Below, piece by piece: positions 58,199-64,000 of a DNA stretch of 64,000 nt (within the stretch, counting starts at the first letter, position 1; each line of letters opens with the position of its first letter). The stretch is taken from positions 79,568 to 143,567 of the forward strand of contig JAMCRJ010000053.1 in NCBI GenBank assembly GCA_023381645.1, given 5' to 3'. A model generated the notes under the pieces. The model saw only the letters and a list, made by a program, of their open reading frames with translations. It searched no databases and had not been told where the DNA came from. Source of the DNA: Gammaproteobacteria bacterium. GTDB lineage: Bacteria; Pseudomonadota; Gammaproteobacteria; Acidithiobacillales; Acidithiobacillaceae. The translations under genes and the position numbers were made by a program.

Positions 58199-58251
58199 TG
58201 GTGCCCAGGGCCGGACTCGAACCGGCACGGCATAAGCCGAGGGATTTTAAG
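58199..58251 (-). repeat. attL: 3' fragment of tRNA-Leu (TAA)
   Basis: On the minus strand this is the 3' part of a tRNA-Leu: end of the anticodon loop CTTAAAA, TCCCT, variable arm CGGCTTATGCCG, T-arm CCGG-TTCGAGT-CCGG, acceptor CCTGGGC and encoded CCA. The 5' half is absent; on the plus strand the match stops after TTTTAAG. Next to it stands an integrase gene. This is the direct-repeat copy left by site-specific integration into a tRNA-Leu gene. Confidence 0.9.
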
Positions 58252-58427
58252 CGGGAGGATGAATCCTGCACCGGACACCTCTCGGCTTGGATACAGCTTG
58301 CTGTAGCAGGTTTTCCTTCGGGTCAATGCCTTGGATCATACCCCGGTGCGTGATGCAAATCGCCCCGTTTCCCTTTCGCTTGGCTCTTGGCCGGCTCCTG
58401 GAAATCGGGGATTTTCAGGAGCACTTC

Positions 58428-59624
58428 ATGGCAAAGATCAAACTGACGAAAACCGTGGTCGATGCGGCGCGACCGCAATCGCAAGACGTCGAACTCCGGG
58501 ACACCGTTGTTCCGGGCTTCTTGTGCAAGGTTACACCAGCCGGCCGCAAGGTCTTCATGCTGCAGTACCGTACGAACTCAGGCGTGCGCCGCAAGCCGGC
58601 GCTCGGCCAGTTTGGTGAGCTGACCGTCGAACAGGCGCGGTCGCTGGCTCAGGACTGGCTGGCAGAAGTTCGGCGCGGGGGCGATCCGGGAAATCAGAAA
58701 ACCGAGGCACGCAAGGCACCGACGATCAAGGAGCTTTGCACCCGGTTCATGGAGGATCATTCCAAACTGCACAACAAGCCGAGCACGCAGAAGTCGTATC
58801 AGTATCAGATCGACTGCTACATCATCCCCGCATTCGGCAGCAAGAAGGCTCACGAGGTCATCCGTCAGGACATCACCGCGCTGATGAAGCACTTGGAGAA
58901 GTCACCCACTCAGGCCAACCGCGTGCTGTCCTGCGTTCGCAAGATGTTCAACCTGGCCGAGTTGTGGGGCTACCGGCCCGACGGCTCGAATCCCTGCCGC
59001 CATGTGCCCAAGTACCCCGAGAAAGGCTCGACCCGGCTCATCACCGACGAACAGATGGTCAGCTTGTTCGCCTACCTGGATCGGGCAGAAGCCGAGCGCC
59101 TGGAGCATCCGATCTACCTGCTGGCCGTCCGGCTGCAATTCGAGTTCGCCGCCCGCATGTCGGAGGTCTTGCTGTTGCAGTGGGATTGGCTTGACCTACC
59201 CAACGGCCGAGCAGTCTGGCCGGACAGCAAGACCGGCAATATGTCCAAGCCCTTGAGCGAAGAAGCTCAGCGGCTGCTGTCGAATGCGCCTCGCTATGGC
59301 GATTCGCCCTACGTCTGCCCCGCCATCCGGGACCATGGCAAGCCGCTGAGTCCCGGTTCCTACTACCAGGCGTGGCGGCGCTTCCTTGATCGTGCCGGCG
59401 TGCCGAAGGTCGGTACCCACGGCATCCGCCACCGCTCGGCGACCGATATTGCCAACTCCGGTATCCCGGTCAAGGTCGGCATGGCCCTCACGGCGCACAA
59501 GACCGTGGCGATGTTCATGCGCTACGTTCACACCGAGGACGACCCGGTGCGTAAGGCCGCCGAGCTGGTGGCGAACCGCCGCAAATCGGTTGTCGGCGCA
59601 CGGCAGTCAAAGGTGGCCGCATGA
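58428..59624 (+). CDS. int: Tyrosine-type integrase
   Basis: Site-specific recombinase of the P4-like/DUF4102 class, 398 aa from ATG 58428 (CAGGAG 7 bases upstream). N-terminal arm-binding part (VELRDTVVPGFLCKVTPAG), core-binding domain (about 100-190), catalytic domain with R243, H331-x-x-R334, H357 and the nucleophile Y366 (FMRYVH). All catalytic residues are present, so it is probably active. It lies 176 bases inside the tRNA-Leu fragment, the usual place. No excisionase gene is visible nearby. Confidence 0.94.
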   Translation: MAKIKLTKTVVDAARPQSQDVELRDTVVPGFLCKVTPAGRKVFMLQYRTNSGVRRKPALGQFGELTVEQARSLAQDWLAEVRRGGDPGNQKTEARKAPTIKELCTRFMEDHSKLHNKPSTQKSYQYQIDCYIIPAFGSKKAHEVIRQDITALMKHLEKSPTQANRVLSCVRKMFNLAELWGYRPDGSNPCRHVPKYPEKGSTRLITDEQMVSLFAYLDRAEAERLEHPIYLLAVRLQFEFAARMSEVLLLQWDWLDLPNGRAVWPDSKTGNMSKPLSEEAQRLLSNAPRYGDSPYVCPAIRDHGKPLSPGSYYQAWRRFLDRAGVPKVGTHGIRHRSATDIANSGIPVKVGMALTAHKTVAMFMRYVHTEDDPVRKAAELVANRRKSVVGARQSKVAA

Positions 59625-59814: not shown

Positions 59815-60198
59815 ATGACGCTCATCCTCAAGCGGAAGGACTTTGCGCGGTGGCAGGCAGGCGAGAAGCTGCCTGATACCGCCTTGTGCAAGGCGGTCAA
59901 GGAGATGGAAGGTGGTCTGATTGACGCGGACTTGGGCGGCCATCTTTACAAGAAGCGAGTGGCCCGTCCCGGCGGCGGCAAAAGCGGCGGCTACCGCACG
60001 CTGCTGTCGGCCCGGATTGGTAGCCGCTACGTGTTCCTGCATGGGTTCCCGAAAAGCGACAAGGCGAACATCACGCAGGACGAGAAGAAGGCGCTGCAAT
60101 TCGCCGGCAAGGTGTTTTTGGAACTGTCTGTGGAAGTCTTGTCGAAAGCGTTGCAGGCCGGTGTGTTACTGGAGGTGCATTGTGAGCAAGATCATTGA
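59815..60198 (+). CDS. RelE/HigB-like toxin
   Basis: 127 aa of the RelE/ParE-superfamily group paired with NadS-type antitoxins (COG4737 as I recall it). Seen: LYKKRVARPGGGKSGGYRTLL and FLHGFPKSDKANITQDEKKAL, the core of these toxins (cited in pieces up to 21 residues is avoided: KKRVARPGGGKSGGYRTLL). ATG at 59815 has TTGGAGG upstream. Toxin precedes antitoxin, as in higBA. Predicted mRNA interferase acting on ribosome-bound mRNA; inference from family. Confidence 0.85.
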   Translation: MTLILKRKDFARWQAGEKLPDTALCKAVKEMEGGLIDADLGGHLYKKRVARPGGGKSGGYRTLLSARIGSRYVFLHGFPKSDKANITQDEKKALQFAGKVFLELSVEVLSKALQAGVLLEVHCEQDH

Positions 60199-60484
60199 AT
60201 CGCTGCGCGACGACCTGGCCGTGCTGCATGAAGTGGGCGCGATCAGCAAGGTGACGATGCGCGAGTTCGACGCGATCTGCCCGCCGCCGGTGCGGGAGTT
60301 CAGCGCCGAGGACATCAAGCATCTGCGCGAAGCGTTGAAGTTCAGCCAGCCGGTGTTCGCGCACCATCTGCACACCTCAGCCTCTACTGTGCGCAAGTGG
60401 GAGCAAGGCGACACCCGGCCCGCTGGGCCGGCACTCAAGCTGCTCAACGTCATCGCTGATAAAGGTTTGCAAGCTATTATTTAG
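60182..60484 (+). CDS. HTH antitoxin, NadS/HigA-like
   Basis: 100 aa; GTG start with GGAGG 6 bases upstream and a 17-base overlap with the toxin gene. XRE-type HTH in LREALKFSQPVFAHHLHTS and ASTVRKWEQGDTRPAGPALKLL. This is the usual partner of the preceding toxin; it should bind the palindrome at 59780-59802. Confidence 0.87.
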   Translation: MSKIIESLRDDLAVLHEVGAISKVTMREFDAICPPPVREFSAEDIKHLREALKFSQPVFAHHLHTSASTVRKWEQGDTRPAGPALKLLNVIADKGLQAII

Positions 60485-60573: not shown

Positions 60574-61041
60574 GTGGCAGAGAAAAAGAACGTCTTCATT
60601 AGCCATGTGCACGAGGACGATCACGGGCTCCAGAAGCTAAAGGATTTGCTGGCCCCGAAGGGGATCGAAGTCAGGGATTCCTCCATCCATACAGGGAAGT
60701 TCAACAATGCGACCGATGAGCACTACATAAAGACGCAGATTCTTGCCCCTGCCATCAACTGGGCTGGAGTGTTCATTTGCTACGTTTCCCCCCAGACCAA
60801 AAATAGTGATTGGGTGAACTGGGAAATCGAATATGCGGCCAAACAGGGCAAGCGCATCGTCGGCGTTTGGGAGCATGGCGAGAAGGAATGCGACCTCCCG
60901 GAAGCTCTGAAAGAATATGCCGACGCATTGGTTGGATGGAACGGCGATGCAATCATTGACGCCATCGACGGGAAGGACTCGTGGGAAAAGCCGGACGGCG
61001 GATCCTGCGACCCGGTTCCACTCAAGCGACATCCCTGCTGA
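60574..61041 (+). CDS. TIR-like domain protein (first gene of candidate defence operon)
   Basis: 155 aa, single TIR-like domain. NVFISHVHEDDHGLQKLKDLL gives strand A and helix A (quoted in part as FISHVHEDDHGLQKLKDL), then WAGVFICYVSPQTKNSDWV and NWEIEYA; Glu84 in WVNWE sits where the catalytic Glu of NAD-cleaving TIR domains lies. No other domain follows except a short Pro/Gly-rich tail. GTG start with GGGGGTG upstream. Stop and next start overlap as TGATG. It could be an effector (NAD hydrolysis), a signal producer as in Thoeris, or a scaffold; activity is inference. Confidence 0.82.
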   Translation: MAEKKNVFISHVHEDDHGLQKLKDLLAPKGIEVRDSSIHTGKFNNATDEHYIKTQILAPAINWAGVFICYVSPQTKNSDWVNWEIEYAAKQGKRIVGVWEHGEKECDLPEALKEYADALVGWNGDAIIDAIDGKDSWEKPDGGSCDPVPLKRHPC

Positions 61042-61667
61042 TGCTCCGCATTCACTCTTATGTGGTGCGATACGACAGCGGTTTCGCGCCTAACCCTTTT
61101 TACGGCTACTGCACGCTTGCGACTTGCAAACCTAATATCCGCCGATCCGCTGGTATCGGTGATTGGGTGGTCGGCAGCGGTAGTAACGATAGAACTGTTC
61201 GACGCGGTGGGCATCTCGTTTACGCGATGCGCGTCACCGAGGCGATGACATTTGACGAATACAGCGTCGATCCACGGTTTGAATACAAAAAACCGTATCG
61301 CAATGGAAGTCGGAAGCAAAGTTGCGGGGACAACATCTACTCCAGAGCCGCGCCGGGAGCCGCCTGGCGCCAGCGAGACTCATTTCACTCCCGCCCAAAT
61401 GGTGCTCTCAATCCGGACCATGTTGCCCGTGATACGGGTGTCAACAGGGTTCTGATCAGCGATGATTTTTTGTATTTCGGAGGCGAAGGCCCGCAGTTTC
61501 CAGATGAACTGAGAGACCAGCAAGATCGGCCTCTATGCAAAACAGGAATAGGCCTAACCACTTTTGACAATGCGAAACTGATTGCGAACCTTGAAAAATG
61601 GGTTCGCAGCTTTGGCGTGAGCGGCTATCAGGGCGCACCATTCGAATGGCTGACCCTTCGCAGGTGA
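61041..61667 (+). CDS. Nmad2-like nucleotide-modification-associated protein
   Basis: 208 aa. The N-terminus LRIHSYVVRYDSGFAPNPF followed by YGYCTLATCKPNIRR and GDWVVGSGS matches, from memory, the Nucleotide modification associated domain 2 family defined by gene-neighbourhood analysis of DNA-base modification systems. HLVYAMRVTEAMTFDEY and CGDNIY follow. The GDWVVG turn recalls PUA/EVE-like folds that bind modified bases. No catalytic motif is obvious. Second of four coupled genes, 3 bases before the next. Confidence 0.78.
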   Translation: MLRIHSYVVRYDSGFAPNPFYGYCTLATCKPNIRRSAGIGDWVVGSGSNDRTVRRGGHLVYAMRVTEAMTFDEYSVDPRFEYKKPYRNGSRKQSCGDNIYSRAAPGAAWRQRDSFHSRPNGALNPDHVARDTGVNRVLISDDFLYFGGEGPQFPDELRDQQDRPLCKTGIGLTTFDNAKLIANLEKWVRSFGVSGYQGAPFEWLTLRR

Positions 61668-61670
61668 CCG

Positions 61671-62807
61671 ATGAAAAAGGAAGGCTCCCTCTTGCTCTCG
61701 GATTACGCTGCGGATGTTACAGCGACAGACGTACTCAATCCGGATGACTTCAACCCTGTTCTCCAAGGACTATACGGAGAAGTTGGCGGGATAATGGCTA
61801 CGGCCAAAAAACACGTCCGAGAAAAAACGGCTTACCCTGGTTTCAAGAAGGCAGCAGAAGAAGAATTTGGGGACACTCTCTGGTACTTGGCTGCAATCTG
61901 CAGGCGCCTACAGATTCCTCTCGAAGAAATCTTTGCAGAAGCCGCGAATCACGGAAACTTCAAGAATGTGGGGGCTGCAAGCGACATCACCGAAGGGGCG
62001 TTGGCCTATATCGTCATACCTGTCGCAGCGACTGCTTCGTTAGATGCCACGCTAGTACGTTTGGGGCAGTCGGCGGCGGCCTTATTGGGAAGCACGCCTG
62101 CACGCACCGATTTGATTGCTTTTGCTAGAGCCTATCTGGATGCGATCCATGCGGCTGAGCTTGCGTTTTCGGAGGTGGCGCGCGGCAATCTTCGGAAAGC
62201 TCGCGGCGCATTCCTGGAGCCACAGGCCAATGACCTGATTGGCCTTGATTTCGACAGTGAGTTCGGAATTGAGGAGCAGCTTCCCAGGGACTTCAAAATT
62301 CGTGTCAATCAACGAGGCAGTGGAAAGAGTTATCTTCAATGGAATGGAGTATTCATCGGCGATCCTCTTACCGACAACATCGCCGACCGCGATGGCTACC
62401 GGTTTCATGATGTCTTCCATTTTGCTTATGTGGCCGTCCTGCACTGGTCCCCGGTTATACGGGCATTGATCAAGCACAAGCGGAAGAGCAATCCGAAGTA
62501 CGACGAAGAGCAGGACAGTGGCCGGGCCATCGTCGTTGAGGAAGGACTTACCGCTTGGATTTTCTCCAGAGCAAAAGAATTGAATTTCTTCGAGAATCAA
62601 GAAAAAATTTCACTGGGAATTCTCAAGACCATTGGCGAGTTCGTGAGCGGATATGAAGTGGAGAAGTGCCCGCTAAAGCTTTGGGAAAAGGCCATCTTGG
62701 ATGGATATGCTGTCTTTCGACAACTCAAGGAAAATCAAGGTGGCTGGATCGTTGGAAATCGAGAACAGCGCACCATCAAATACATGCCACTTGAGTCTGA
62801 ACAATGA
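61671..62807 (+). CDS. MazG-like pyrophosphohydrolase with uncharacterised C-terminal domain
   Basis: 378 aa. Residues about 30-95 are MazG-like: YGEVGG (E37), then AAEEEFGDTLWYLAAICRRL with E63-E65 and D68 as metal ligands. These enzymes hydrolyse NTPs or modified dNTPs. Residues about 105-180 are helical and unassigned. The C-terminal half has conserved-looking blocks IGDPLTDNIADRDGYRFHDVFH (H246-D247-V-F-H250), VLHWSPVIRALIKHKRKS, GRAIVVEEGLTAWIF and a final GGWIVGNREQRT. The His/Asp block could be a metal-binding site. Similar two-domain proteins exist, to my memory, but without assigned function. ATGA overlap with the next gene. Confidence 0.78.
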   Translation: MKKEGSLLLSDYAADVTATDVLNPDDFNPVLQGLYGEVGGIMATAKKHVREKTAYPGFKKAAEEEFGDTLWYLAAICRRLQIPLEEIFAEAANHGNFKNVGAASDITEGALAYIVIPVAATASLDATLVRLGQSAAALLGSTPARTDLIAFARAYLDAIHAAELAFSEVARGNLRKARGAFLEPQANDLIGLDFDSEFGIEEQLPRDFKIRVNQRGSGKSYLQWNGVFIGDPLTDNIADRDGYRFHDVFHFAYVAVLHWSPVIRALIKHKRKSNPKYDEEQDSGRAIVVEEGLTAWIFSRAKELNFFENQEKISLGILKTIGEFVSGYEVEKCPLKLWEKAILDGYAVFRQLKENQGGWIVGNREQRTIKYMPLESEQ

Positions 62808-63466
62808 ACATCCATCCATTCGTTGATGCAGTGGCTTCGCTGCAGTTCGAAGACTGTTTCAATCCGTACTCGGATCGCTGTGAAGTTCATGATCGACGCG
62901 ACGCACCGCTTCGGCGTGCCGCCGCACTATCCGCCATGTTAAGTCGGGCAATCGAGGAACCGGTAGACGCGATATGGATTGGACGAGACCTCGGATACCG
63001 TGGAGGACGCCGCACGGGGCTGGCCCTCACCGATGATATTCACATAAGCCAGCACGCTAGGCGTTGGAATCTCGACCAGATCGCTGAGCGACCGACGAAA
63101 GGCAGTGCTGTGGCCGAACGAACCGCCGCGGTTATATGGGGCATGCTGGAGCATATCGATGCCCGCATCTTCCTCTGGAACGTCTTCCCGCTCCATCCGC
63201 ATGAATCCGGAGACCAGTTCACCAACCGACAGCACAACGCGCGTGAAAGGCGGGCTGGCGAAGAATTGCTCCAGCAACTCATCGTCTTGCTGCGCCCCTC
63301 TCGGATCGTCGCCATTGGCAACGATGCCGCCGCCGCGGCACATCGCATCACGGATTCAGTACCCGTGATCTGCGTGAGGCATCCTAGCTATGGAGGACAG
63401 ACTCAATTCCAGAAGCAAATCTCGGAACTCTATGGGCATCCCGTGAGCACGGAGTCGTTGTTTTGA
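62804..63466 (+). CDS. Uracil-DNA-glycosylase-like protein
   Basis: 220 aa of UDG-like fold: strand 1 plus loop VDAIWIGRDLGYRGGRRTG (residues 55-72) in place of the GxDPY water-activating motif, FLWNVFPLHPHESGDQFTN, LLRPSRIVAIGNDAA, and the C-terminal RHPSYGGQTQFQKQI (192-206) in place of HPS. The motif A lacks the usual Asp-Pro-Tyr/Asn-Pro pattern, so base excision of uracil is uncertain; a modified base may be the substrate. Last of the four coupled genes. Confidence 0.75.
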   Translation: MNIHPFVDAVASLQFEDCFNPYSDRCEVHDRRDAPLRRAAALSAMLSRAIEEPVDAIWIGRDLGYRGGRRTGLALTDDIHISQHARRWNLDQIAERPTKGSAVAERTAAVIWGMLEHIDARIFLWNVFPLHPHESGDQFTNRQHNARERRAGEELLQQLIVLLRPSRIVAIGNDAAAAAHRITDSVPVICVRHPSYGGQTQFQKQISELYGHPVSTESLF

Positions 63467-63482: not shown

Positions 63483-63905
63483 TTAGCGGGCGGCGATCGC
63501 CGCTTCAATCCAGCTCGACAGGTTGTCACTGATGTGGCTATAGGCTGCACTGCTGGTGGTTCCCACTGGATCGTAGATGCGGACGACAGTGGATAGCTTC
63601 CTGCCGTCACTCAAGTTGAAGGAATCAAACGGATTGGCTCCGGCAATTGAGGGTTGTTGGTTGTGGTCCAACAGCTTATGGATTCGTATTCCCATGATTC
63701 CCTTGCCACTATTCCACGATTGCTCAATCTCATATCGAATCCAAGGGCGATTTGCCGTTTCAGCACCGACTAGAACAATTGTGCATGTCCGCCCTTGTAA
63801 CTGATCTCCGATCCAGCGTTTGATCGAGGCCTCGCCGCCATGCTTTACTTCTTCCCACTCGTTGGCGCTAGCTGAGCTATGATCGAAAGTGGTGTACGGG
63901 CAGAT
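63483..63905 (-). pseudogene. ThsB-like TIR gene, N-terminus lost
   Basis: On the minus strand the frame reads SANEWEEVKHGGEASIKRWI, then CTIVLVGAETANRPWIRYEIE, and GIMGIRIHKL, ANPFDSF, SSWIEAAIAAR before the stop at 63483. This matches the MTH538/DUF1863 TIR-like family that includes Thoeris ThsB. The first strand (usually FYSFHY with Arg) and a start codon are missing; upstream the frame meets a TAG at 63939-63941. Insertion of a transposable element is the likely cause. The exact junction, between about 63885 and 63925, cannot be fixed without the other end. Confidence 0.75.
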
Positions 63906-64000
63906 TACATCTGACTTGAGTGAGGTGGCGCACTGTTGCTACAAAGGGTTTGCCGACCAATGAGCAACGAGGAGTGCGCCGTGAAAGATAGTACCGTTTT
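63906..64000 (+). mobile_element. Left end of an insertion sequence (IS4-like), cut by window edge
   Basis: The sequence changes character after the TIR remnant. It contains GAGGTGGCGCACTGTTGC as a possible terminal repeat region, then GAGGAG and the start of a transposase at 63981. Left boundary is approximate and the right end lies outside the window. Confidence 0.5.
63981..64000 (+). CDS. IS4-family transposase, N-terminal residues only
   Basis: GTG at 63981 with GAGGAG upstream starts MKDSTVF, the N-terminus of DUF4372-containing IS4-family transposases as I recall it. Only six full codons are inside the window, so the call rests on this short match and on the disrupted gene to the left. 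Confidence 0.5.

Follow-up and report, generated by a model that had tools for sequence, protein, structure and literature searches.

Thoeris, the anti-phage system that most resembles the locus described here, pairs a TIR protein (ThsB) with a SIR2-SLOG effector (ThsA), whose SLOG domain binds 3' cyclic ADP-ribose (3'cADPR) in a pocket (PMC11204291). Two other reports name phage proteins, capsids for instance, as triggers of TIR systems (PMC12847820, PMC12578639). A second point of comparison is a 2026 study, DefensePredictor, which presents predicted systems with MazG, MazG-C and NMAD domains, sometimes located in defence islands, UDG being named in a figure legend; there NMAD is listed as a domain 'of unknown function', MazG_C carries the label 'predicted nucleotide kinase', itself a prediction, validated systems with 5-hydroxymethyluracil kinase and thymidylate synthase are reported, and Burroughs 2015 is credited with predicting a defence role for several of the domains (PMC13092281). 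Here we analyse a 64,000-nucleotide stretch (the window) of contig JAMCRJ010000053.1 from a bacterium of the Acidithiobacillaceae, focusing on an operon that encodes, in this order, a ThsB-family TIR protein, an Nmad2 protein, a MazG-like protein and a DNA glycosylase of the UDG superfamily (Table 1). The reading that we tentatively favour, with confidence that stays just short of even, is that of a mobile Thoeris-like anti-phage system whose trigger, as we infer it, would be altered pyrimidine bases or nucleotides.

A preliminary description of this DNA had reported four plus-strand open reading frames joined by TGATG, a 3-base gap and ATGA, and all of them were recovered in place: A61041 is common to the TIR stop and the Nmad2 start, the Nmad2-MazG spacer comprises positions 61668-61670, and the MazG and UDG frames overlap by four bases. 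For comparison we used 80 genome loci (designated by L numbers), namely the best of 481 MazG relatives obtained by comparing a MazG alignment with genome contigs; because they were ranked by similarity to the MazG protein of the window, this sample favours the four-gene arrangement. Gene order was tallied by profile searches with self-made seeds at a threshold of 60 bits. The order TIR-Nmad2-MazG-UDG on one strand was found in 69 of the 80 loci, while in the remaining ones UDG (six loci), TIR (four) or both TIR and Nmad2 (one) fell below threshold, partly owing to contig ends; in L085 a more distant TIR (PF08937, 22.6 bits) occupies the TIR slot. The commonest gaps of -1 (TIR-Nmad2), 3 (Nmad2-MazG) and -4 bases (MazG-UDG) are those of the window, and since 69 of 80 relatives keep order and strand, with these as the most frequent gaps, the arrangement goes beyond chance. 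The set is complete, with all four proteins at full length as judged by length limits, in 66 loci, 62 of which have no gap above 120 bases. Across 69 loci (the 66 complete ones plus the window, L002 and L003) the divergence between pairs of loci is correlated among the four proteins, with r values of 0.79-0.95 and without control for the host tree.

The surroundings of the operon recur as well: Within 6 kb of it, 53 of the 66 complete loci carry a gene with a SLOG domain, which is of the LD_cluster3 type in 31, of the LD_cluster2 type in 16 and of the SIR2-STALD type in six. The putative effectors take four forms: a TIR protein of ~360-380 residues paired with a SLOG protein of the LD_cluster3 type, as in Tistrella, where such a TIR+SLOG pair follows the operon (L001:8341-10074); a TIR protein of ~390-415 residues paired with one of the LD_cluster2 type; a fusion of patatin with LD_cluster2; and SIR2-STALD. 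Two SIR2-STALD proteins that were checked are ThsA according to PADLOC (603 bits in L002, 511 bits in L045). The fusion, a patatin phospholipase with a SLOG-like N-terminal part, is present in eight complete loci (L019:13123-14739, L020, L025, L027, L028, L030, L031 and L032), each time alongside another SLOG gene and with a full-length profile match; in L019 the SLOG part is LD_cluster2 and the match to PADLOC is confined to the phospholipase part. Three of 11 patatin matches are without a SLOG part (L052, L053, L076). As to the 13 complete loci without a SLOG gene, one side or both are truncated in L016, L024, L060, L070 and L074, and a small protein family is present near the operon instead in L071, L074, L082 and L084. 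A patatin is found in L053, a TIR gene in L069 and in L080, and a ThsB-like gene in L086; in L037 nothing was recognised. In the window no SIR2-STALD profile match was obtained up to its end, TM-macro not being searched for; this end lies 534 bases past the operon in insertion sequence-like DNA, which hides the sequence further on. With an effector adjacent in most relatives, the operon looks like the sensor and signal half of a larger TIR-SLOG system. The preliminary description had referred to TIR domains as NAD-using defence effectors; this is corrected in that the TIR protein belongs to the catalogued ThsB family and that, in most relatives, the effector would be the SLOG gene next door.

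The small protein family just mentioned adjoins the operon at L057:8146-8829, L071:8319-8816, L074:3210-3704, L082:8156-8827 and L084:8144-8827, L057 standing outside the 66 complete loci as its contig ends in UDG. Its members in L057, L082 and L084 contain a hydrophobic segment, the three members compared with PADLOC gave no match, and L090 and L092 show weaker matches that lie within larger proteins in the vicinity of TIR-Nmad2. The family is possibly a further effector type.

The first protein of the operon matches ThsB_TIR (PF08937) in Pfam with 79 bits, the PADLOC ThsB model PDLC00418 with 310 bits across residues 1-155, and the TIR chains 8wcf, 8fz9, 8btn, 6lhy and 9b7d of the PDB with E values from 1.5e-9 to 5.6e-5. 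Glu84, which we take to be the catalytic glutamate of the TIR motif, is kept in 31 of 32 representatives (alignment A8). We propose that the protein acts as a signal-producing NADase. All 32 representatives also share an invariant cysteine located 0-3 residues from the C-terminus. Nmad2 matches PF18753 with 247 bits (cut-off 26.1), and its structure model is closest to the EVE/ASCH/YTH readers of modified bases, at weak scores; a sequence search of the PDB yielded no meaningful match. We propose that Nmad2 may read a base or nucleotide that carries a modification. A search of 5.8 billion proteins scored 7958 relatives of Nmad2; a candidate Nmad2 fusion in G208 (674-residue open frame) was rejected, as the listed open reading frame has 200 residues and a different gene fills the remainder.

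The third protein is related to MazG and the all-alpha NTP pyrophosphohydrolases in sequence and fold: It matches MazG_C (PF18722) with 278 bits, its structure model resembles dimeric dUTPases, and, while the N-terminal part of the window copy has no Pfam MazG match, a relative in L005 matches MazG (PF03819) with 23 bits. Throughout the 58 aligned proteins E37, E64, E65 and D68 are retained and position 40, the second glutamate of ExxE, is replaced (Gly in 31, Ser in 26, Gln in one). We assume ExxE...ExxD to be the metal-ligand motif of MazG and call the protein MazG-like because this set of ligands is incomplete at position 40. The fourth protein exceeds the Pfam cut-off of 24.3 bits for UDG (PF03167) with 32.5 bits and conserves D62 (49 of 50 aligned proteins), N126 and H193 (50 of 50 each), which presumably correspond to the catalytic Asp, Asn and His of Escherichia coli UDG. 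Among PDB sequences it showed weak similarity to family-4 UDG only (E 0.2); the ribosomal proteins that also appeared in this search look like chance matches.

Taken together, these features can be arranged into a mechanism in which the infection by certain phages would yield altered pyrimidine nucleotides or bases. The dUTPase-like MazG protein would handle free altered nucleotides and UDG altered bases in DNA, whereas Nmad2, YTH/EVE-like and encoded beside TIR, would bind the altered base or nucleotide and release or assemble TIR. The latter would then convert NAD+ to an ADP-ribose signal, which in turn would bind the effector next to the operon through its SLOG domain, be it a TIR+SLOG pair, a patatin-SLOG fusion or SIR2-STALD; depletion of NAD+ or damage to the membrane by this effector would finally abort the infection. 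In addition, UDG may attack phage DNA directly. A more specific proposal, possible but doubtful in our judgement, is that MazG and UDG pass a modified nucleotide or an excised base to Nmad2, which switches on its ThsB partner, and that TIR-Nmad2 is reused together with thymine-modifying genes of its own, so that TIR signalling detects foreign marks or checks own ones. The earlier suggestion, in which modified nucleotides are sensed or removed by the operon and the TIR protein is triggered, has become the best reading, albeit one that we still infer; likewise upheld is that of a single conserved and mobile operon tied to defence genes, with partners that handle bases or nucleotides. If true, TIR systems would gain a chemical trigger in the form of altered DNA building blocks, a TIR alarm could catch those phages that evade restriction by odd bases, and the role of Nmad2 would become directly testable.

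The four-gene set is built of two pairs, TIR-Nmad2 and MazG-UDG, each of which is also found apart. In 17 plasmid records with Nmad2, TIR lies within 2 kb in 11, MazG within 5 kb in 11, and UDG is found in nine; reading of the table places all four genes adjacent and in order in five (Tistrella, Cupriavidus, Beijerinckia, Mesorhizobium and Roseicitreum, the order spanning the record start in the last), and three records have neither TIR nor MazG. In the stretches read, L004-L007 and L104 have MazG-UDG but no TIR-Nmad2, and SLOG profiles found no match there (the L104 stretch measuring just 3.6 kb); L092, L093 and L099 have TIR-Nmad2 but no MazG. The two pairs are divergent in L091 and L097, and in L088 and L089 a metallophosphoesterase gene lies between them. 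Moreover, among 398 Pseudomonadota genomes Nmad2 occurs in five, MazG_C in three and both together in none; each was absent from 14 control genomes. All these separations would be expected if two independent defences merely travelled together, with TIR-Nmad2 and the SLOG effector providing abortive infection, MazG-UDG providing a Brig1-like restriction that cleanses nucleotides and excises bases, and no signal passing between them. We consider this main rival rather unlikely, as the tight or overlapping joints of the complete loci and the correlated divergence of the four genes speak against it, though shared descent alone could yield the latter. The families are rare and separable, while one group of MazG proteins holds firmly to the order of the four genes. 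The concern raised in the preliminary description that the genes might occur mostly apart is partly borne out across the families, in that the two pairs are also found separately. In L004-L007, MazG-UDG faces an operon with genes for a C1 peptidase and a helix-turn-helix (HTH) regulator and a second gene related to peptidases, a neighbourhood that looks like another mobile conflict system.

The company kept by the separate pairs bears on a further explanation, in which the host DNA receives a mark with the help of Nmad2 and MazG, and UDG destroys DNA that is unmarked or wrongly marked. Genes known from thymine hypermodification adjoin TIR-Nmad2 or MazG_C in other loci: TIR-Nmad2 is found near a thymidylate synthase-like gene, a TylF-type methyltransferase and a 5-hydroxymethyldeoxyuridine (hmdU) DNA kinase (HMUDK_hel) in L092 and L099, MazG_C is beside or near the hmdU kinase family in L094, L096, L105 and L106, and L093 likewise belongs to the loci with a thymidylate synthase, methyltransferase or hmdU kinase nearby. 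The neighbourhoods in L092, L094, L096, L099, L105 and L106 also count in favour of the Thoeris-like reading. However, our own profiles detected a thymidylate synthase-like or hmdU kinase gene in none of the 66 complete loci, in the stretch read, and therefore no mark-making activity is seen in the operon. This renders such a marking system improbable, and the self-contained base-modification and restriction-like set that had been offered as a second option finds no support.

Carriers of the operon are chiefly Pseudomonadota. Going by the record titles, seven of the 80 loci come from elsewhere, namely from Binatota/Binatia, Acidobacteriota (Bryobacterales among them), Nitrospira, Omnitrophota and Bacteroidota, and all seven are metagenome-assembled genomes (MAGs); carriers that are MAGs may stem from binning errors. 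L021 (Achromobacter), L022 (Stutzerimonas) and L023 (Variovorax) have 5.9 kb over the operon in common at 99.8-100% DNA identity, and this near-identical DNA shows that the operon is mobile and was recently transferred between orders. Likewise, L012, L013 and L015, two of which are MAGs, have 7.9-12.9 kb in common at 99.7-99.9%, and L008 and L009 resemble the window at 85-88% in the operon (part of it in L009), the preceding region and the integrase region. Relatives of the integrase and of the HTH antitoxin lie upstream of the operon in 11 and 12 of the 80 loci, respectively. In phage records there was no Nmad2 match and one weak match to the MazG domain. Viral contigs contributed eight Nmad2 loci, one of which (L107) holds the full four-gene set plus a SLOG/TIR pair; Nmad2 is accompanied by MazG-UDG in L109 and L112, TIR-Nmad2 by an hmdU kinase in L110, and in the other four Nmad2 alone was recognised by our profiles. 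On a Cupriavidus plasmid island (L002:1219-14089) the four-gene operon is accompanied by ThsA, several TIR genes and an adjoining gene annotated as a CBASS phospholipase. The distribution is pertinent to the notion of nucleotide-pool house-cleaning and DNA repair, in which dUTP removal and uracil excision happen to sit in mobile DNA: The dUTPase-like fold of the MazG model and the UDG family match would suit it, but the patchy, rare occurrence of Nmad2 and MazG_C, the ThsB-type TIR aboard, the SLOG neighbours and the recent exchange between orders make it very unlikely.

Table 1. Features of the operon and its surroundings in the window.
Feature	Position	Strand	Basis
TIR, ThsB family, 155 residues, GTG start	60574..61041	+	PF08937, PADLOC ThsB, alignment, PDB matches
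Nmad2, 208 residues, predicted PUA-like (EVE/ASCH/YTH-type) fold	61041..61667	+	PF18753; structure model
MazG-like (dimeric dUTPase-like all-alpha) domain + MazG_C, 378 residues	61671..62807	+	PF18722; structure model
UDG-superfamily DNA glycosylase (by sequence), 220 residues	62804..63466	+	PF03167, conserved Asp62/Asn126/His193
3' part of second ThsB-like TIR gene	63483..63874	-	Tistrella gene profile, 259 bits
Start of IS256-family-like element, continues past window end	63874..64000		DNA match from ~63874
HTH antitoxin-like gene	60182..60484	+	HTH_3/HTH_31 Pfam matches
Toxin-like open reading frame	59815..60198	+	upstream of operon; presumed identity
Tyrosine-type integrase of carrying element	58428..59624 (likely ATG; listed frame opens 58287)	+	DNA similarity to annotated integrases

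The setting within an integrative element, described previously, was confirmed: An integrase, an open reading frame that we assume to be toxin-like and an HTH antitoxin-like gene precede the operon, and a ThsB-like remnant follows on the minus strand. At the DNA level the integrase frame is 73-75% identical to stretches of plasmids, of which several carry the annotation site-specific integrase. Directly before it, positions 58200-58300 resemble by eye the 3' portion of a tRNA gene, which was not called by ARAGORN; this stretch is possibly an attachment site. The homology of the second ThsB-like gene, which is intact in relatives (e.g., L001:7814-8299), ends at ~63874 where the IS256-like DNA starts, and the latter is at most 87.5% identical to Acidithiobacillus plasmid DNA (eight of eight matching records, three with an annotated IS256 family transposase). 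That the operon follows an integrase and a toxin-antitoxin-like pair would also fit a selfish, addiction-like stability module of the carrying element, with the TIR protein as a toxin restrained by its partner proteins; addiction would require neither separate effectors nor three conserved partners that handle bases, and we deem this the most far-fetched of the explanations.

Iyer 2013 and Burroughs 2015 are likely the first descriptions and may already cover this gene neighbourhood. PADLOC 2.0.0, the defence catalogue used for comparison, had no match for three of the four operon proteins, all but TIR, which upholds the earlier statement that no named system has this combination as far as that catalogue goes; with regard to the literature it is qualified by the 2026 study, which names predicted MazG/MazG-C/NMAD systems, and the parts are not a first sighting (PMC13092281). 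The systems of that study have domain names in common with the operon and are predicted to be defensive, but its text does not contain 'TIR', 'Thoeris' or 'SLOG'; one of the eight systems drawn there may or may not be this operon (PMC13092281). Our literature search, outside of which Burroughs 2015 and Iyer 2013 fell, found no paper that links MazG/NMAD/UDG systems to Thoeris or SLOG effectors, the parts themselves not being new in print. Brig1 offers a precedent in being a UDG-superfamily protein in defence that is encoded near a ThsA-like gene, but it suffices alone and excises alpha-glucosyl-hydroxymethylcytosine (PMC11078745); it is likened to the operon UDG by description. The predicted fold of Nmad2 places it, at the weak scores given above, next to PUA-like readers of the EVE/ASCH/YTH type such as those in EVE-HNH endonucleases (PMC7897488); unlike these, Nmad2 is encoded with a TIR protein rather than fused to a nuclease, and its binding is a prediction. 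The closest resemblance is that to Thoeris, with which the operon has in common the ThsB family of its TIR protein and the nearby SLOG proteins, including the SIR2-STALD matches in six of the 66 complete loci (L045 among them) and the ThsA on plasmid L002. In contrast to Thoeris, the operon of this TIR gene includes Nmad2, MazG and UDG, and the effector is usually TIR with an LD_cluster2 or LD_cluster3 SLOG protein instead of SIR2-STALD, none being visible in the window. We accordingly class the locus, as far as its sequence allows, as Thoeris-like and not as Thoeris.

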